Positions 6,319 to 14,470 of a DNA stretch of 58,084 bases are shown piece by piece. The first letter of the stretch is position 1; every line of letters begins with the position of its first letter. The position numbers and the translations under genes were made by a program. The notes beneath the pieces were generated by a model, which saw only the letters and a program-made list of their open reading frames with translations, was not told the DNA's origin and made no database searches. This DNA is from Natronorubrum sulfidifaciens JCM 14089. GTDB taxonomy: Archaea > Halobacteriota > Halobacteria > Halobacteriales > Natrialbaceae. The stretch is from assembly GCF_000337735.1 (NCBI RefSeq), contig NZ_AOHX01000001.1:1-58084 (forward strand), given 5' to 3'.

Positions 6319-6449
6319 GAGCTGATTACCGGTCGTCTCGAGCGGAATCGGTTGCCGATCGGTTTCGTCGGGAAAGGTCACTCGAAAGAGCGAGTGCTGT
6401 GCGATCGGTCAACAGAAGGTATATGGACGGCGATTGGCAACGTCCGGCA

Positions 6450-7823
6450 ATGAGTGTCGATCTCGTCGTACGCAACTGTACCGTCGTTACCCCTGCCGGG
6501 CGAACGCCCGACGCGGGCGTCGCTGTCGAGGACGGAACCATCGTTGCCGTCGGCAGAAGCGACCGACTGCCCGACGCAGACCGGGTCCTCGACGGGAACG
6601 GGAACGTTCTGGTCCCCGGCATCATCGATGGTCACATCCACAACCGCGAGCCCGGACTCGAGTACAAAGAAGACTGGGAGTCGGCCACACGTGCTGCCGC
6701 CGCCGGCGGTGTGACGACCGTCGTTGGGATGCCAAACACCGACCCAGTGATCGACCGACCCGAGCACCTCGAGTTGAAGTTCGACCGCGGAGAGGCGTCA
6801 GCCCACGTCGACTTCCAGAGCTACGTCGTCGTCACATCCGAAAACCTCGATCTCATTCCGGATCTCGACGAGGCCGGCGCGCTCGGGTACAAAATCTTCC
6901 TCGGCTCCACAGTTGGCGACGTGCCGCCACCGAACGACGGCGAGATCCTCGAGGCGATGGAGCGAATCCGCAAGACGGGCAAGCGACTCGGCTTCCACGA
7001 GGAAAACGGCGAGATCATCGACCACTACACGGAGCAGTTCAAAACAGCGGGGAAGAACGACCCGATCGATCACTCCCACTCCCGGCCGGTCATCGCCGAG
7101 CAGGAAGCCGTCGAACGAATGCTCACCTTCGCCGAGGAGACTGGCGTCAAGGTCCACATGTTCCACGTCTCCTCGGGGTCGGCCGCCGAAGCCGTCGCCC
7201 GCGGCAAGGCTCGTGGTATCGACGTCACTGCCGAGACCTGCCCACACTATTTGTGGTTTACCGAGGAGGTCATGCGCGAGAAAGGGAATCCAGCACGGAT
7301 TCAACCACCCATTCGGGACGGCGACGAGCGAGAACGGCTCTGGGAGGTCGGCATCGACAACGGCGCGATCGACAGCATCGCGACCGACCACGCACCTCAC
7401 ACCCCCGAAGAGAAGAAAGTCGACGACCCCTTCGGGAACACCTGGGAGGCGATCTCGGGCTTCGTCGGCCTCGAGACCGAAGTCCCAGCGCTGCTCACCT
7501 TCGTCGATCAGGGCCGACTCACGCTCGAGGAGTGGGTCCGCCGCCACTCGACCCGTCCCGCCCAGATCTGGGGGCTGTACCCCAAGAAGGGGTCGCTGCA
7601 GGTCGGTACCGACGCCGACTTCACGATCGTCGACCCCGACCTCGAGTGGACACTCGAGGACGGCGACGAGCTGCACTCGAAAAATTGCGTGACGCCGTTT
7701 ATCGGTGAGTCTTTCACTGGCAAAGCAACGGCGACCGTCGTTCGCGGCGAGGTGGTGTACGAGGACGGTGCCGTGGTTGGCGAGGCGGGATACGGGACTC
7801 GAGTCGACGTAGACGACAGCTAA
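6450..7823 (+). CDS. Dihydroorotase-family cyclic amidohydrolase
   Basis: The product has 457 residues from the ATG at 6450; earlier ATGs in frame give non-family residues. Metal-site motifs are all present: DGHIHNREPG (His-x-His) near 58, the lysine in GYKIFLGS near 148 that is carboxylated in the family, FHVSS near 235 and the terminal Asp in ATDHAPH near 312. AAAAGGVTTVVGMPNT is the usual strand-helix signature. The fold hydrolyses cyclic amide bonds (dihydroorotate, allantoin or dihydropyrimidines). The HxHxREPG form favours a dihydroorotase-type substrate, but the neighbours are not pyrimidine genes; pyrD lies 6 kb away on the other strand. A T-rich run follows the stop. Confidence 0.88.
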   Translation: MSVDLVVRNCTVVTPAGRTPDAGVAVEDGTIVAVGRSDRLPDADRVLDGNGNVLVPGIIDGHIHNREPGLEYKEDWESATRAAAAGGVTTVVGMPNTDPVIDRPEHLELKFDRGEASAHVDFQSYVVVTSENLDLIPDLDEAGALGYKIFLGSTVGDVPPPNDGEILEAMERIRKTGKRLGFHEENGEIIDHYTEQFKTAGKNDPIDHSHSRPVIAEQEAVERMLTFAEETGVKVHMFHVSSGSAAEAVARGKARGIDVTAETCPHYLWFTEEVMREKGNPARIQPPIRDGDERERLWEVGIDNGAIDSIATDHAPHTPEEKKVDDPFGNTWEAISGFVGLETEVPALLTFVDQGRLTLEEWVRRHSTRPAQIWGLYPKKGSLQVGTDADFTIVDPDLEWTLEDGDELHSKNCVTPFIGESFTGKATATVVRGEVVYEDGAVVGEAGYGTRVDVDDS

Positions 7824-8006
7824 CTAAACAGATCCGTTTTCAGTCATTATCTTCGGTGGCAATGGCAAGCAGCGACAGCGCTCGAGCGGGTTCGTTCGGC
7901 ATCAGTAGCCCGTGATTGACACGCTCGAGAACAGTCAGCAAATCCGTAACGAGGTGGCTACCGTTTGTCGAGTTCCTCGAGGCTCCGTCTAGCGGTCTAC
8001 ATGGCT

Positions 8007-8020
8007 GTGTATATATACAC
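8007..8020. promoter_or_regulatory. Palindromic TATA element upstream of the TasA-like gene
   Basis: GTGTATATATACAC is a perfect 14-bp palindrome whose centre is an archaeal TATA-box core. It sits about 108 bases before the ATG at 8128, so either the leader is long or the palindrome is a regulator site. Confidence 0.45.
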
Positions 8021-8127
8021 CCCTCCATACGGTCGGTTCTGGTGTCTCACTCGGAGCGAGCGCCGACGGCTCGCCACGCGGCGACGCCGTGTCACGGCAG
8101 CCCGACTCCGACGTGGGGGAGACAACC

Positions 8128-9471
8128 ATGACAGACGAAAGCAGTTCAGTCTCGAGGCGAAACGTGCTCGCAGGACTCGGTACCATCGGTGTCGGTGGGG
8201 CACTCGTGGGTGCAGGCACGAGTGCGTTCTTCAGTGACGAACAACAGCTGCCGAACGAGATGGTCGCTGGCGAACTCGAGCTCAAACTCGACTGGCAACA
8301 GCGCTACTACGGTGCATCACAGGAGACGCGACCGCAGGATTACGGAGGTGCAGGACGGCCGTACGTCAACGCACACCCGGACCACGACAAAGACGGCGAA
8401 CAGTCGATCGTGGTGAACGACACGGAGTACAGATACGGTGAACTCGGCCGAAACATCGGCGACGACGAGATCGATTACTGTGCAGATCTCGATCAAGACT
8501 TCTACTTCGGCGAAAATCAAGACTCACTGATCGAGCTCGACGACATCAAGCCAGGTGATTGTGGCGAGATTACCTTTAGCTACCACCTCTGTGATAACGA
8601 CGGATGGATCTGGTTCCGAACGAAGAACAAGGACTACCCAGAGCCGAGTGAAGAACCACACCTCGTCGACGCGATCGAGGCAAAGGTGTGGTACGACGTG
8701 TACGAAAACGAGGACGAAGGTATCGAACAGGGAGACAATGAGCTCCAAGAGGAAAAAGAACCGCTGATCGCCCAAGGGTCGCTGCGTGACGTGCTTGAGG
8801 AACTCAACGAGACCAACGGTGGATTCCTGCTCAATCCCGATCCGCTGGTCGATCCAGATACGAACGATGAGAACAAAATCGACGGCTGCGTCGAACTCGA
8901 TACGATCGACGACGATCTCGAGGCCGTCGACGACGTCCAGCAGTACCTACGCGACCTCTTTGCGTCCTATCAAGAGAACGAACAGGACGGAGAGTACATT
9001 GAACTCGAGGGAGAAGGTGACGACGTAATCAGAATCTGGATCACCGGCCTGATCTATCAGGACGCGAATGATCCCACCTCCGAAGTCGTCGGCTTCGACT
9101 GGGAGAGCAACTACGGTATCTGTCGGACGAGAGTGAAAGGCGGTCCGGACGACGACGAGTTTACCGTCGAAGACTGTGCCTTCGAGGGAACGTCTGTCGC
9201 GCCGTTCGGTGCTGCACAAGGAACGAAGCGCTCCGGCGTCAGCAACTTCCAGTTCTGGTACTGTGAGGGTGTCGAGGAAGCGAAAGAACCAGAATGTTTC
9301 GAGGCATCGACCACCCACTACATCGGCTTCGAGTGGTGTCTCCCAGAAGGCGTCGGCAACGAGATCCAAGGCGACGCACTCGAGTTCGACTTCGGGTTCT
9401 ACACTGAGCAGTGCCGACACAACGACGACCCAACACCGTACTGGAACGAGGAAGAGGAAGAAAACAGCTGA
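8128..9471 (+). CDS. SipW-type signal peptide protein, TasA/camelysin-like secreted protein
   Basis: The product has 447 residues from the ATG at 8128. The N-terminus VSRRNVLAGLGTIGVGG continues into GTSAFFSDEQQLPNEMVAGELELK. This is the signature of SipW-dependent substrates: a Tat-like hydrophobic stretch, then A-F-F-S-D, an Asn and AGxLxL. The mature chain is acidic with several Cys (DYCADL, GDCGEIT, GICRTR, FEWCLPE) and Trp-rich beta segments. TasA and camelysin relatives form extracellular fibres or metalloprotease-like surface proteins in Bacillus; in haloarchaea the role is unknown. A signal peptidase and another substrate lie convergently downstream. A T-run terminator follows. Confidence 0.85.
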   Translation: MTDESSSVSRRNVLAGLGTIGVGGALVGAGTSAFFSDEQQLPNEMVAGELELKLDWQQRYYGASQETRPQDYGGAGRPYVNAHPDHDKDGEQSIVVNDTEYRYGELGRNIGDDEIDYCADLDQDFYFGENQDSLIELDDIKPGDCGEITFSYHLCDNDGWIWFRTKNKDYPEPSEEPHLVDAIEAKVWYDVYENEDEGIEQGDNELQEEKEPLIAQGSLRDVLEELNETNGGFLLNPDPLVDPDTNDENKIDGCVELDTIDDDLEAVDDVQQYLRDLFASYQENEQDGEYIELEGEGDDVIRIWITGLIYQDANDPTSEVVGFDWESNYGICRTRVKGGPDDDEFTVEDCAFEGTSVAPFGAAQGTKRSGVSNFQFWYCEGVEEAKEPECFEASTTHYIGFEWCLPEGVGNEIQGDALEFDFGFYTEQCRHNDDPTPYWNEEEEENS

Positions 9472-9490
9472 ACTAATCCCGTCGACAGAC

Positions 9491-9500
9491 GCGTTTTTTC
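9491..9500 (+). terminator. T-rich transcription terminator
   Basis: GCGTTTTTTC lies 20 bases past the stop of the TasA-like gene, followed by a second T-rich patch. Oligo-T runs of this kind terminate archaeal RNA polymerase. Confidence 0.5.
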
Positions 9501-10313
9501 CGTGTTTATTTACCCCGTTTCTATCGACAGTCTCAATCTCGGGCTGACTGTTTCTGTGCGCTGGATTACCGAAACACCTGCAGTCTACTATTCGGCACTT
9601 CTCGAGCAGCCCGTCATCAGCCGTGCTGAGTCAGAGACGGCCGCGTGACCATCGGCGTGAGACGTGATTGACGAGCGACTGAGAGGGGGTGCTGTCGTCG
9701 GTGACCGCCAATCGCCGATCCGTGGCTGGCGATCGGCGGGAACTCAGTACAACAGTCCCGATGAAACGGTGGTCTGTGAGAGTTGTCGTGTAGCTACCGT
9801 TCGATGACCGTATCGGTCATTTCAGTTGCGTTGGGTGTATGTTAGCACACTGGAGATGATTTCCAAACGACAACGCACAATGGAGCCGTCCTCGAGTCGC
9901 CGGGCCCGAAAGCTCGACAAAACCGCTCGAGTGTCAGCGGGTGCTGTCCGATAGGGACGGTGAGAGTCGCATCATGACTGAGCCACGTTCCGTGACAGCG
10001 GACAGTCACAGAATCGTGGACCCAGTGACGAACGCAGTGCTCACACTGATTGACCGACCGCCAGCCAGTGCTGTCGTGTCGGCCACTCTGCTGGGAGAGT
10101 CCAACCCAGTCGCTGACGTGACGGACTACGAGTGCGTATGTGCTGCTCGACAGCGCGACCAAATGGACTGTTGCAGTTGACTATCTCTGCTGCTGTTCAC
10201 TGGTCACGCGCTGGACGTATGCGAACGACAAGACGGGACTCGAGCGGTCACGTGTCGTACGGTTGAAAAGGAGTTGCCAGTGTAGCAGCCACTATGTGCC
10301 GTTCACACGGTGA
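9501..10313. other. Intergenic stretch between convergent genes
   Basis: It contains one copy of palindromic repeat family I (9680-9767). A plus-strand frame from 9974 to 10180 could encode 68 residues, but its third-position base use is no different from background, so no gene is called. The text AGTGTAGCAGCCACT near 10279 resembles the left end of repeat family II. Confidence 0.4.
9680..9767 (+). repeat. Palindromic intergenic repeat family I, copy A
   Basis: The core is CCGCCAATCGCC, 11 bases, GGCGATCGGCGG: a 12-bp hairpin with one mismatch. Outer arms GGTGCTGTCG and GTACAACAGTCCCG are partly complementary. It matches copies at 33296 and 56102 in core and right flank. Confidence 0.7.
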
Positions 10314-11258
10314 TTATTCGCCGTCGGTTTCATCGGTCTCATCCGACGGCGTGTCTTCGTCGCCATCATCAGTGGTATCGTCTTCCTCAACCACACCGTC
10401 GCTAGCGTCGTCATCGGAATCAGTCTCGTCTTCGGTATCGGAGTCATCTGTTTCGGTCCCGTCTTCGCCATCAGAACCGTCTGTTTCGGTCTCGTCTTCG
10501 GTATCAGAGTCGTCCGTTTCGGTCTCGTCTTCGGCATCAGAGTCGCCCGTTTCGGTCTCGTCTTCAGCATCCTCATCAACGGGATCGGCCTCGTCATCCG
10601 TCTCCTCACCATCGTCACCAGTGTCGTGTGCTTGTTCCTCGTTCTCGTCGGCGTTATCAGCGGTCTCATTTTCCTCGAGGTCGTTTTCATCGGTCTCGTC
10701 TGTGACCGTGTCCGGTTCAGTATCCCCATCGCCAGACGAGTTGCCATCCTCACGTTCGGTACTGGTCTCGTTTCGATCACCATCCAACTCCCCGTCACCG
10801 CCATCGTCGGTAGTAACGCTGGCTCCGCCTGGCCCACCACTGCGGACAGCTGCAGTTCCGCTGACGGAGCCGCTGTCAGCAGTGAGTTCGTACGTGTACT
10901 CGCCGCCAGCCAACTCGTTCGGCGGCACTGTAAGCGTTGTTTCAGCACTTTCTCCAGCCTCGAGTTGCAGTTCATCCGTCAGTGAAAGCTGTGCGATCTC
11001 GAGTGTGACCGAGACGGTCTGTGCACGATCGAGGTCGTTGGTAACGGTCACGCTGATCGGAGTCGCGCCACTGTCGCTGATTTCGAGTGTCCCTTCGTCG
11101 ATCGTGGTTTGCCACTCGTCGGCGGCGCTCATCTGATTCTCGGTGAACGAGTTGTGATCAGAGAGGACAGCCGTCGTCGGAGCGACTGCAGCACCACCAG
11201 CGACGGTGCCGATCAGTACGAGGACGACGGTCAGTCGAGTGATGGCTGTGGTTGTCAT
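10314..11258 (-). CDS. Secreted TasA-like protein with long Asp/Glu/Thr tail
   Basis: The 314-residue product has an N-terminal membrane/signal segment (LTVVLVLIGTVAGGAAVAP) followed by TAVLSDHNSFTENQMSAAD, a variant of the SipW-substrate motif also seen in the gene at 8128. Residues about 50-145 form a beta-sandwich-like domain: EGTLEISDSGATPISVTV, RAQTVSVTLEIAQL and LAGGEYTYELTADSG. The last 165 residues are a low-complexity acidic tail of ETETDDSDTED blocks with no membrane anchor. It overlaps the signal peptidase gene by 4 bases, which suggests that enzyme processes it. It is probably an extracellular or surface polymer subunit; function is unproven. Confidence 0.8.
   Translation of the reverse strand: MTTTAITRLTVVLVLIGTVAGGAAVAPTTAVLSDHNSFTENQMSAADEWQTTIDEGTLEISDSGATPISVTVTNDLDRAQTVSVTLEIAQLSLTDELQLEAGESAETTLTVPPNELAGGEYTYELTADSGSVSGTAAVRSGGPGGASVTTDDGGDGELDGDRNETSTEREDGNSSGDGDTEPDTVTDETDENDLEENETADNADENEEQAHDTGDDGEETDDEADPVDEDAEDETETGDSDAEDETETDDSDTEDETETDGSDGEDGTETDDSDTEDETDSDDDASDGVVEEDDTTDDGDEDTPSDETDETDGE
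10430..10600. repeat. Coding repeats of the acidic tail
   Basis: On the minus strand, units of about 30 bp encode ETE(T)DDSDTED-type blocks six times in succession with small changes. They lie inside the TasA-like gene and are prone to length change. Confidence 0.65.
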
Positions 11259-11944
11259 TCGGTCTCCTCCGTCGATGTCGTCTCGTCTTCTCGTGTCGGT
11301 GGCTCGGATACCGTCGTGTCTGTGTCACCTGCACCGACTGTGTGGGACTCGAGTACCGTCTCATCGGCTGGCTCCAATGCCGGTGGATCGTCGGCTGCCT
11401 CGAGTTCGGGTGGCCCAGCAGCCGAGAGATAACCGAACTCACGGAGCAACTGCAAGCTGCCCGAGGCGACGAGTGCGACACCGGGGGCGATTACGAGGAC
11501 GAGCAGTCCGAGACCCGAGCGAGCAAACAGGAGCAAGTGACCGAGATACGGAATATGCCAGTGGAGATCACCCTGTGCGTACTCGGCCGGGACGAGTCCG
11601 TCGTCCGGGTTGTCGTTAGCATCACCCTGCAACTCGAAGTAGCGCTCGCCGTCTTCCTCGACGATGTCGACGACTCTGTGGGTGACATAGCCCGAATCAT
11701 CGCTGCTCCCGTCGTGGAAGGTGACGACATCACCAGTCTCAATCTCGTCCGGTGAGACATCCTGCGTAACGATGACGTCACCCGGCTCGATTGTCGGGCT
11801 CATGCTTCCGGAGGTGACGATGTATGTATCGTCGCCACTGACGAGCCCCGGAACGGCGATTATCCCCACGAGCAACAGTAGGATCAACAGGCCGCCGCCG
11901 AGAAGGACAGTGAGCCCGGTTTTGACGCTCGAGTGTGCGTTCAT
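11255..11944 (-). CDS. Signal peptidase I, SipW-like
   Basis: The 229-residue enzyme has a membrane helix at about 9-34, then the catalytic block YIVTSGSMSPTIEPGDVIV with nucleophile Ser in SGSMSPT (about residue 46). YVTHRVVDI (about 87-95) places His where bacterial enzymes carry the general-base Lys; this is the ER/SipW form typical of archaea. A second helix (LLVLVIAPGVALVASGSLQL) lies near 150 and an acidic cytoplasmic tail follows. It overlaps both neighbours by 4 bases (ATGA), forming a three-gene operon with a SipW-type substrate and a DUF7344 regulator. I infer that it is the dedicated peptidase for the two substrates here. Confidence 0.9.
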   Translation of the reverse strand: MNAHSSVKTGLTVLLGGGLLILLLLVGIIAVPGLVSGDDTYIVTSGSMSPTIEPGDVIVTQDVSPDEIETGDVVTFHDGSSDDSGYVTHRVVDIVEEDGERYFELQGDANDNPDDGLVPAEYAQGDLHWHIPYLGHLLLFARSGLGLLVLVIAPGVALVASGSLQLLREFGYLSAAGPPELEAADDPPALEPADETVLESHTVGAGDTDTTVSEPPTREDETTSTEETE

Positions 11945-12540
11945 GCGTCCTCACCTCCTGTCTCGTTCGGTGGCATCCCGTTCGCACCGAGTTGCATTCG
12001 ACTGTCATGGCGAACGTGAACGAGAGCCGATGCAGTAAACAACACCGTCACGAGGGTCGTCCCCGCCAACGGTGGGATCAACGAAAACGGAAGCAGTCCC
12101 ACCCACATTCCGACGACGAAGCCAGTACAGAGAACACCCAACCCGAGATAATACTTGCTCCACGGAATATCGTCGTGTGGAACGACATCGAGATACACCT
12201 CGAGTTCCGATGCGGCGTCGGTAAGGACGACAGTTCCACGATCGGCATCGAACGAGATGATGTCACTGTCATCCAGTTTCGGCAAATGTGACTGTCGCAA
12301 CGCGGTGTAGACCCGCGTTCGTTGCTCGTAGGTTACCTCGGTCGTCGGGACACCGTTCTCCCAGGCGGCGATCTGTGCGACAAGTTCGCGCAGGTCAGCG
12401 ACGCCATCTGTCTGCTTGAGATAGTGCAAGACGTACCGACGGCGTCGGCAGCTCAGCATCTCGAACGCGACATCCTGAGACAGGTGTGGCGTTCGGTCTG
12501 CCGACTCACTAACTGGTCGTAAAGCGCCCGTCGACATCAT
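11941..12540 (-). CDS. DUF7344 winged-helix protein with two membrane helices
   Basis: The 199-residue protein has the DUF7344 winged helix at about 25-125: AFEMLSCRRRRYVLHYL, LRELVAQIAAWENG and YTALRQSHLPKLDDSDII. Two hydrophobic helices follow (about 130-150 and 155-178), then a short polar tail. It is first in an operon with a SipW-like peptidase and a TasA-like substrate (4-base overlaps), so it probably regulates that export system. It is a paralogue of the gene at 1369. Its start could be either of two adjacent Met codons. Confidence 0.85.
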   Translation of the reverse strand: MMSTGALRPVSESADRTPHLSQDVAFEMLSCRRRRYVLHYLKQTDGVADLRELVAQIAAWENGVPTTEVTYEQRTRVYTALRQSHLPKLDDSDIISFDADRGTVVLTDAASELEVYLDVVPHDDIPWSKYYLGLGVLCTGFVVGMWVGLLPFSLIPPLAGTTLVTVLFTASALVHVRHDSRMQLGANGMPPNETGGEDA

Positions 12541-13145
12541 TGCCCTGTGTGTCGAAGCGAGTCACCGCCCGTCGAATTACTCGTTCGCCACCGTGAAACG
12601 AGCGTGATACTCCCCATAGCTGCACGCCTGACTGATAGTACGGTTTTTCGCATACTCCAGACATCACATCAATTATGGTTAGTTATGGACAATGTAGACA
12701 GTCTCGAGCTTCGAGGAGTTCCAGTTTGGCAGCGACTAGAGATCGTTTTCAGACGGTTACGATCACGACGCTCCCGGCTCTCAGAAACGAATCGGTGCGA
12801 TAGACAGCCAAATAGTACGACTCAGCCGGTCTTCCGTCCCAATGGCCCACCGGTCATGAGGACGGAGTCGGTCACAACGGGCCGTGACGACAGCAGTCCG
12901 TCTCACTGGTGTAGTAACCGCAAAACGTCACTGCACATCACCCCGTACGACAGCTGTGCGATGCGTGTGTCAATCGCTTCAGTTGAGATTATCGGACGGG
13001 TTCGACACGACATCCAACCGTCGTCGACGTACTCGCACTCACGCTCAACGTGCCACACGGACCCGTGCGCGTTCTCACGCTGTGAAATTGTCAGCAGGTT
13101 TATATTCAGTACCGAACCAAACGGATTCGGTAGCTGTTCCGATCA
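12541..13145. other. Intergenic stretch with a palindromic repeat
   Basis: No credible gene: frames such as 12547-13149 give Arg/Ser-rich sequence without family features. The region holds the upstream DNA of the export operon, an AT-rich patch near 12665-12690, and a family II repeat copy at 12910-12993. Confidence 0.4.
12910..12993 (+). repeat. Palindromic repeat family II, diverged copy
   Basis: It opens with TGTAGTAACC, has CACTGCACAT, and CGACAGCTGTGCGATGCGTG matches CGACGGCTGTGCGATCAGTG of the copy at 30628. It ends CTTCAGTTGAGATTAT. Ends and centre are recognisable, with about one third of positions changed. Confidence 0.6.
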
Positions 13146-13364
13146 ATGACAGAAACAACTTCCGAACGCGACGAGACGAGCCAAGCAGAACGACTCCGAT
13201 CGGTGTATCTCTCCGTAACCGGCGACGCCGAGCCCGTCGTCGAATCACAACAAGAAGATTCACCAAGTCGAGAGATCCAGACGGAACGTGCCGACGGAGC
13301 CGTCGGCCCGGCTGAACTGCACGGACTCGACGATGCGATCGACGATCCCGGCCCTGCCGATTAA
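13146..13364 (+). CDS. Small acidic conserved haloarchaeal protein
   Basis: The 72-residue protein is rich in Glu, Asp and Ser (MTETTSERDETSQAERLRSV, then VESQQEDSPSREIQ). It has a short amphipathic stretch AERLRSVYLSVTG and the ending LDDAIDDPGPAD. No Cys pair or membrane segment is present. Codon use fits a real gene, and the start has typical leaderless context. It converges on pyrD with a 35-base gap. Function unknown. Confidence 0.6.
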   Translation: MTETTSERDETSQAERLRSVYLSVTGDAEPVVESQQEDSPSREIQTERADGAVGPAELHGLDDAIDDPGPAD

Positions 13365-13399: not shown

Positions 13400-14470
13400 C
13401 TATTCGAGGCCTGCACCCACGGCGTCTTCGATCGAGGCGAAGCCATCCCGCTCGAGTAGCTCCACGAGCCCCTGATTGATCCGTTTCGCCGTCGAGGGAC
13501 CCTCGTAGACGAACCCGGTGTAGAGTTCGACAAGCGATGCACCGGCGCGGATCTTTTCATAGGCCGCTCCGGCCGAATCGACGCCGCCGACGCCAATGAT
13601 CGGTACGTCGCCGTCGGTGTACTCGGCGATCGTTCGAATGACCGCAGTGGATCGATCCTCGACCGGTTTCCCGCTGAGGCCGCCCCACTCCTCCTGGTTC
13701 GGGGACTCGAGACCGTCTCGAGTCGTCGAGGTGTTCGTTGCGACGATCCCGTCGAGGCCAAACTCCTGGACGATATCCACGAGGTCCAGAATCGAGTCGT
13801 CGGGCGAGTCAGGGCCGATCTTCACCAGAATCGGTTTGTCGGCGTCGTTTTCGGCCTCGAGCATCTCGAAGATCGCGCGAAGATGCTCGGGCGAGCCCTC
13901 GTCGAACTCCTCGGGCGTGTTCGGACAGGAGACGTTGACGACGACGTAGTCGGCAAACGGTGACAGACGGTCGAACACCCGCCGATAGTCCTCGATCGCT
14001 TCCGACTCACTCGAGGAGTTCATCTTTCCGATGTTTACGCCAAGCGGAAATCCAGGCGTCCCGTCGGTCTCGAGTCGCGATTTGACACGCTCCATTCCCT
14101 GGCCATTAAAGCCCATCCGGTTGATCATCGCCTCGTCCTCTCGGAGTCGGAACAGTCGGGGGCGATCGTTGCCCGACTGCGGATAGGGCGTGACGGTGCC
14201 GATTTCGACGAATCCGAACCCAAGCGCTTCGAGCGCGTGAGTTACTTCGGCGTTTTTGTCGAAACCAGCAGCGACGCCGACCGGGTTCGGAAACGTGGTG
14301 CCAAAGAGGTCAACCTCGAGTGCGGGATGGTCGTACTGATAGGCCGCTGCGAGCGCGTTTCGTGTCGGCCACGTCGACTGCGCCGCCCGGAGCGTCCGCT
14401 TCCCGAGATCGTGAGCCGTCTCGGCTGGAAGTTTGAACGCGAGGGGGCGAACTCGCGAATAGAGCGTCAT
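13400..14470 (-). CDS. pyrD: Dihydroorotate dehydrogenase, class 2 (quinone-linked)
   Basis: The 356-residue enzyme oxidises dihydroorotate to orotate in pyrimidine synthesis, passing electrons to quinone. The N-terminal amphipathic region YSRVRPLAFKLPAETAHDLG marks the membrane-associated class 2. FMN/substrate motifs follow: NPVGVAAGFDKNAE, GFGFVEIGTVTPYPQ, INRMGFNGQG, the catalytic loop VVNVSCPNT with Ser as base, GIVATNTSTTR and the phosphate-binding IIGVGGVDSA. Length is normal. It lies 74 bases downstream of the MmgE/PrpD gene on the same strand, but is probably functionally separate. Confidence 0.95.
   Translation of the reverse strand: MTLYSRVRPLAFKLPAETAHDLGKRTLRAAQSTWPTRNALAAAYQYDHPALEVDLFGTTFPNPVGVAAGFDKNAEVTHALEALGFGFVEIGTVTPYPQSGNDRPRLFRLREDEAMINRMGFNGQGMERVKSRLETDGTPGFPLGVNIGKMNSSSESEAIEDYRRVFDRLSPFADYVVVNVSCPNTPEEFDEGSPEHLRAIFEMLEAENDADKPILVKIGPDSPDDSILDLVDIVQEFGLDGIVATNTSTTRDGLESPNQEEWGGLSGKPVEDRSTAVIRTIAEYTDGDVPIIGVGGVDSAGAAYEKIRAGASLVELYTGFVYEGPSTAKRINQGLVELLERDGFASIEDAVGAGLE

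Follow-up and report, generated by a model that had tools for sequence, protein, structure and literature searches.

A four-gene haloarchaeal cassette that joins a SipW-class signal peptidase to a predicted TasA-fold protein

We analysed the first 58,084 nucleotides of contig NZ_AOHX01000001.1 of Natronorubrum sulfidifaciens JCM 14089 (the window), and describe here a cassette (positions 7824-13187) of four genes that probably serves an extracellular TasA-like fibre. It is bounded by an allB/pyrC-type gene (6399-7823) and, at the other end, by the pyrD side (13400-14470). A first-pass annotation of the sequence had placed two proteins with SipW-substrate motifs, a SipW-like peptidase and a DUF7344 protein at 8128-12540, and all four genes are located there. 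The plus strand carries S1 (8128-9471, 447 amino acids), a predicted TasA-fold protein and the proposed main fibre subunit. On the minus strand lie S2 (10314-11258, 314 amino acids), a proposed minor partner or anchor, a SipW-class archaeal signal peptidase of type S26B (11255-11944, 229 amino acids), and the DUF7344 protein (11941-12540, 199 amino acids), a proposed membrane-bound regulator. At each junction between the genes of the minus strand 4 nucleotides are shared, and given these overlaps the three are predicted to form an operon. S1 is a separate gene, convergent to this operon, in all nine cassettes that we compared (the window and loci L036-L043). The order DUF7344, peptidase and S2, facing S1, is found again in eight other genomes, a repetition that places the arrangement beyond chance.

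The peptidase has two membrane segments and retains the SGSM, THRV and GDAN motifs (Ser, His and Asp, respectively). It belongs to the archaeal signal peptidase I family TIGR02228 (S26B), scoring 94.1 bits with a cut-off of 51.85, and reaches 87.5 bits against the Bacillus SipW model NF046067, below the equivalog cut-off of 190. The two other archaeal-type peptidases of this genome, on contigs C37 and C31, score 33.6 and 16.6 bits against the same model. Because all three enzymes stay under 190 bits, the name SipW-class, which we use for scores of at least 50 bits against the SipW model, appears justified for the window peptidase, and the name SipW does not. The C31 peptidase is probably a housekeeping enzyme; its neighbours are presumably Orc1/Cdc6-like and DNA polymerase D small-subunit-like genes, as we read their sequences.

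The N-terminus of S1 contains SRRNVL, which resembles a twin-arginine translocation (Tat) signal, followed by the SipW-type motif GTSAFFSD...N..AGELEL. It matches the SipW-dependent-type signal peptide model TIGR04088 (19.2 bits, cut-off 19), and the 30 S1 relatives in our alignment all match it too, with E of 0.1 or less; one relative is named ‘SipW-dependent-type signal peptide-containing protein’ in RefSeq. The Pfam model Peptidase_M73/camelysin (PF12389) also matches, at 31.0 with a cut-off of 22.5, in residues 11-55 only. The TasA equivalog NF046066 does not match S1 of the window and matches 2 of the 30 relatives (best E 0.0017). Searched by sequence against the PDB, S1 retrieved nothing but the signal region of 9p0a (E 0.045), and a search of PHROGs for a virus origin gave no match for S1 or S2.

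A model of S1, predicted from 30 sequences, has an ordered core and a mean predicted local distance difference test (pLDDT) score of 75. Among PDB structures its fold matches the TasA fibre 8aur best (Z 9.1, 158 residues aligned), with lower scores for an unrelated enzyme (Z 6.5), Pyrobaculum bundling pili (6.1), cannulae (6.1) and a Sulfolobus thread (5.5). S1 is thus predicted to have a jelly-roll fold of the TasA type. Invariant columns among the S1 relatives fall mainly in the signal region, the KPGD segment and a C-terminal N...Q.RHN stretch, and KPGD, GNEIQ and FYTEQCRHN are conserved landmarks. The relatives range from about 220 to 636 amino acids in length. Some of them contain an inserted von Willebrand A (vWA) domain (L047:2766-4409, L055:1724-3631 and others).

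The first-pass annotation had named failure of the families to co-occur in other genomes as a result that would refute its proposal, and here the outcome is favourable. In a sample of 61 haloarchaeal genomes the S1 family and a SipW-class peptidase occur together in 19 and are both missing from 40. SipW-class peptidases without S1 are found in none, and the class is missing from complete genomes that have no S1. The remaining two genomes have S1 without a strong peptidase match; one is incomplete and the other has a partial match 2.3 kb away. An S1-family gene lies within 6.2 kb of every one of the 25 SipW-class peptidases (Fisher P 7e-14), and is adjacent to only 2 of the 45 weaker peptidase matches. 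Of these two exceptions, one is a partial SipW-like match and the other is a second peptidase match inside a cassette-bearing locus. The proposed pairing of a SipW-class peptidase with a substrate of TasA fold is therefore borne out by the top match to 8aur, by the rank of the window peptidase as the most SipW-like of the three, and by this co-localization.

The four genes also come and go together at one site. The cassette stands between pyrD and the allB/pyrC-type gene in 5 of 10 Natronorubrum genomes; the other five keep both flanking genes and lack all four cassette genes, with only ~430 bp separating pyrD from the allB/pyrC-type gene in two of them. Since the flanks are kept where the four genes are absent, the genes constitute a discrete accessory cassette that is present or absent as one unit. 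Flanking genes are shared by the window and seven of the eight other cassettes: pyrD and the allB/pyrC-type gene both flank six, and L042 has pyrD and an epimerase gene. The cassettes of N. bangense and N. aibiense are carried by plasmids of ~210 kb. A scan of the whole genome collection with the peptidase gave matches only in N. bangense and in distant bacteria. In some cassettes an additional gene for a membrane protein lies between S1 and S2 (L041:6140-6667, plus strand, which we take to be DoxX-like from a reading of its sequence; a similar open reading frame is at L038:9059-9595, minus strand).

Both transcription units are preceded by conserved elements. Upstream of S1 is the conserved promoter element GTGTATATATACACCC (8007-8022, plus strand), with a TATA sequence inside a 12-bp palindrome. 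The form GTGTATATATAC precedes S1 in 9/9 cassettes. Searched in 41 genomes, the fuller pattern GTGTATATATACNCCC has a single occurrence in each of six, always upstream of S1, and all six bear the cassette; it is absent from the rest of the 41 and gave no matches in a reversed control. Upstream of the operon, on the minus strand, is the conserved element CATAACTAACCATAATTG (12670-12687), seen as CATAACTA at the same place in all nine cassettes, and this is a possible site for a regulator. From its place in the operon, the DUF7344 protein may be a regulator of the cassette. It scores 105.5 bits against PF24035 (cut-off 27.8), has hydrophobic segments near its C-terminus (residues 131-176) and gave no match in a sequence search against solved structures. 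We take it to contain a winged-helix domain, which is probable from a reading of its sequence. DUF7344 proteins are nearly ubiquitous, and those closest to the window copy adjoin a SipW-class peptidase. Because a DUF7344 gene also lies within 10 kb of at least 37 of the 45 weaker peptidase matches, the association of a DUF7344 protein with an accessory peptidase appears to be a wider haloarchaeal theme.

Comparison of the cassettes points to a separate history of the S1 gene. Between the window and N. bangense the peptidases are 87% and the DUF7344 proteins 84% identical, whereas the S1 proteins share 38%. Between the window and genome G005 the values are 63% for the peptidase, 76% for DUF7344 and 82% for S1. 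The flanking genes of the window are nearer to those of N. bangense than to those of G005, and the S1 promoter and leader are nearly identical in the window and N. bangense. As S1 similarity ranks against that of the peptidase, DUF7344 and the flanks, the comparison suggests that the body of S1 has been replaced by exchange between cassettes, as in variable surface structures. S1 appears to be the most changeable gene of the cassette, as would be expected of an exposed fibre subunit. The loci that show this reversal of rank against the window are L036 and L039.

The same genome contains a second fibre-type locus (L069; contig C37:44000-58000), with a DUF7344 protein, a Taf-type pilin, an Ig-like protein and a 389-amino-acid peptidase. 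The pilin is homologous to the solved structure 9p0a (E 1.7e-19).

We consider it probable that the cassette is an accessory unit whose four genes serve an extracellular TasA-like fibre. This reading draws on the gene identities, the TasA-type fold of the S1 model, the SipW-like peptidase and its coupling to S1, the presence or absence of the cassette as a unit, the promoter element of its own, the variability of S1, and the second locus that combines DUF7344, a peptidase and a pilin of the solved Taf type. In the proposed mechanism S1 would be exported, its RR-containing signal pointing to the Tat pathway. The SipW-class peptidase, judging from the motif and the co-occurrence, would remove the signal by a cut immediately ahead of the FFSD segment. 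Mature S1, with its predicted TasA-type β-sandwich, may then polymerize as TasA does, by lending a flexible N-terminal segment to the next subunit. S2, whose tail is acidic and disordered, probably owes its maturation to the same peptidase and could act as starter, cap or anchor in the manner of TapA. Control of the set would fall to the DUF7344 protein, which probably consists of a DNA-binding domain fixed to a membrane anchor.

The place of S2 in this scheme is the part most exposed to an alternative. S2 consists of a hydrophobic N-terminus, a SipW-like motif (AVLSD...N..SAAD), an Ig-like β domain (residues ~51-140) and a tail. It could instead be a membrane-anchored envelope protein that is neither a substrate nor a part of the fibre, its motif being coincidental; we regard this as a real possibility, somewhat short of an even chance, and it is compatible with the fibre role of S1. 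Consistent with it, S2 of the window exceeds the cut-off of no family model and has no match to TIGR04088 (cut-off 19 bits), which two of the nine orthologues match with E 0.024 at best. The TapA model TIGR04087 likewise does not match S2 of the window, one orthologue reaching E 0.023; a TapA-like role is a guess. The predicted model of S2 is an Ig-like sandwich with a disordered tail, and is poor (pLDDT 57). Its fold matches are generic Ig-like domains of many unrelated proteins, mostly GH3 enzymes, and we dropped the fold search as a guide to function. Yet S2 orthologues occupy the same position in all eight other cassettes, always after the peptidase. They have drifted to 22-42% identity, and only M1, S33 and N41 are invariant among the nine; S33 and N41 fall within the SipW-like motif. 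The claim of SipW-substrate motifs in both proteins thus holds for S1, and for S2 as a motif below threshold. The Asp/Glu/Thr tail that had been noted is exactly 165 residues long in S2 of the window (51 Asp, 36 Glu and 26 Thr, 113 in all) and is not a constant feature: S2 in L042 has no tail, and S2 in L043 is almost nothing but tail.

Several further observations weigh against the fibre interpretation. S1 lies outside the peptidase operon, so the cassette departs from a tapA-sipW-tasA-type operon that keeps substrates and peptidase together. S1 clears TIGR04088 only just, the S2 motif is sub-threshold, and the S2 tail varies from absent to its full length in the window. The mean pLDDT of the S1 model includes a first stretch of 45 residues below 50, its alignment with 8aur has 14% identity and a root-mean-square deviation of 5.3 Å, and Foldseek alone gave no match to the model with E below 0.001. 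S1 might be matured by its dedicated peptidase and form no polymer, being a variable secreted or surface protein of the camelysin kind, such as a surface antigen or adhesin. The confinement of the Pfam camelysin match to the N-terminal part of that model, the single S1 gene in the window, and the length range of the relatives and the vWA domain in some, more adhesin-like than uniform subunits would be, agree with this view. We nevertheless think it unlikely: the nearest fold is that of TasA, which forms fibres, further archaeal assemblies, filaments or tubes, come next, and the vWA-bearing relatives are possibly tip adhesins of a fibre. That the peptidase is simply a further general signal peptidase in a genome that holds three, S1 and S2 being matured by the probable housekeeping enzyme and the linkage being historical, is very improbable in view of the S1 gene beside every SipW-class peptidase and the lack of that class in complete S1-free genomes.

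An unexpected feature beyond the window is found in the leaders of S1 genes. Many S1 genes of multigene arrays, and that of one cassette (L041:4218-4258, plus strand), are preceded by GGCGGTTCGACTCCGCC, which has the form of a tRNA T-arm. GGTGGG comes next, and most copies then have a CCCC/GGGG hairpin a short distance upstream of the start codon. The T-arm stem is paired in 15/15 aligned copies, with two covarying pairs. CCCAC or CCCAT, which can pair with GTGGG, lies upstream in 15 of 17 (5.0 expected); the computed pairing is not significant against shuffles (P 0.066). Searched with a model of the element, the 61 genomes give 27 matches of at least 30 bits, all of them by position in fimbrial gene clusters, and these include S1 (TasA-type) loci as well as Taf-type pilin loci (G056:C6 and G017:C62). 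In the arrays, elements are found at L047:2718 and 4477, L048:5627, L049:747, 3588 and 5300, and L055:1679 and 3687, and on the minus strand at L050:11575 and 13430, L052:11631 and 13531, L053:9915 and L054:11718. Six loci that carry the element were searched against Rfam, and nothing exceeded the gathering score. ARAGORN calls a tRNA at two of the elements, in L047 and L052; we rejected ordinary tRNA genes, as the element recurs directly before pilin genes and its middle is variable.

The S1 leader of the window (8040-8127, plus strand) combines a CTCAC/GTGGGG pairing with what is at most a decayed T-arm-like sequence, GGCAGCCCGACTCCGAC. Its computed fold is stable, at z -3.6; among 200 shuffles, 1 was as stable. 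An intact T-arm was rejected here, the T-arm model R1 giving at most 5.4 bits. The T-arm-like leaders resemble the t-elements of Haloferax. These have a tRNA-like structure and are cleaved by RNase P and tRNase Z; one of them, upstream of the 5S rRNA, sets the 5′ end of that RNA (PMC4326828). A possible reading, though less likely than not, is that leaders which mimic tRNA precede the fibre genes of haloarchaea and would be cut by RNase P and tRNase Z, and that the window holds a decayed version in a single-subunit relative. Equally tentative is the assignment of parts, in which a T-arm with a UUCRANY loop, GGTGGG as an acceptor-like strand and the CCCC/GGGG hairpin are repeated between successive pilin genes of two pilin families. 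Cutting could then yield single-gene pilin mRNAs with a protective 5′ hairpin and set the ratios of the subunits. If the leaders of the related loci are indeed processing signals, they would extend t-elements to a new role in messenger RNA.

The description of the archaeal version as little known was partly wrong. TasA-like archaeal fibres are not new: structures have been solved of a TasA-like pilus, the bundling pilus of Pyrobaculum calidifontis (PDB 7ueg, as cited in PMC9674648), and of a Taf-type haloarchaeal pilin (PDB 9p0a). NCBIfam contains the Taf fimbrial families TafA, TafC and TafE, and the SipW-dependent name is in use in RefSeq. A search of the literature available to us found no paper on haloarchaeal SipW/TasA loci or on TafA/TafE.

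The cassette shares with Bacillus subtilis tapA-sipW-tasA a SipW-class peptidase, a main protein of TasA fold with a SipW-type start motif, and a second small secreted protein. It differs in that S1 is separate and convergent, has an RR signal and, with large insertions, reaches about double the size of TasA, in that S2 combines an Ig-like domain and an acidic tail without a TapA family match, and in the presence of DUF7344 in the operon. The archaeal bundling pili (AbpA) are TasA-related filaments and among the top fold matches of S1, but AbpA belongs to a different phylum, has no detectable sequence match to S1 and is a much smaller subunit. Taf-type haloarchaeal fimbriae likewise have a locus with a DUF7344 protein, an S26B peptidase and an RR-signal pilin; their pilin family is different, S1 sharing only the signal region, and the Taf peptidase, that of contig C37, is not SipW-class. 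The array loci of other haloarchaea (L044-L055) have the same S1 family and a SipW-class peptidase. These differ in usually having several tandem S1 genes, mostly longer peptidases (~330-390 amino acids), other minor proteins and the T-arm-like leaders. N. bangense carries such an array on a second plasmid, where the RefSeq names are SipW-dependent and signal peptidase I.

The cassette ties the biofilm-fibre machinery of Bacillus to haloarchaea through a compact four-gene unit, carried by half of the sampled Natronorubrum genomes. Within it the peptidase and the proposed regulator are retained, and S1 is perhaps a diversifying surface structure, possibly under pressure from viruses or partners.

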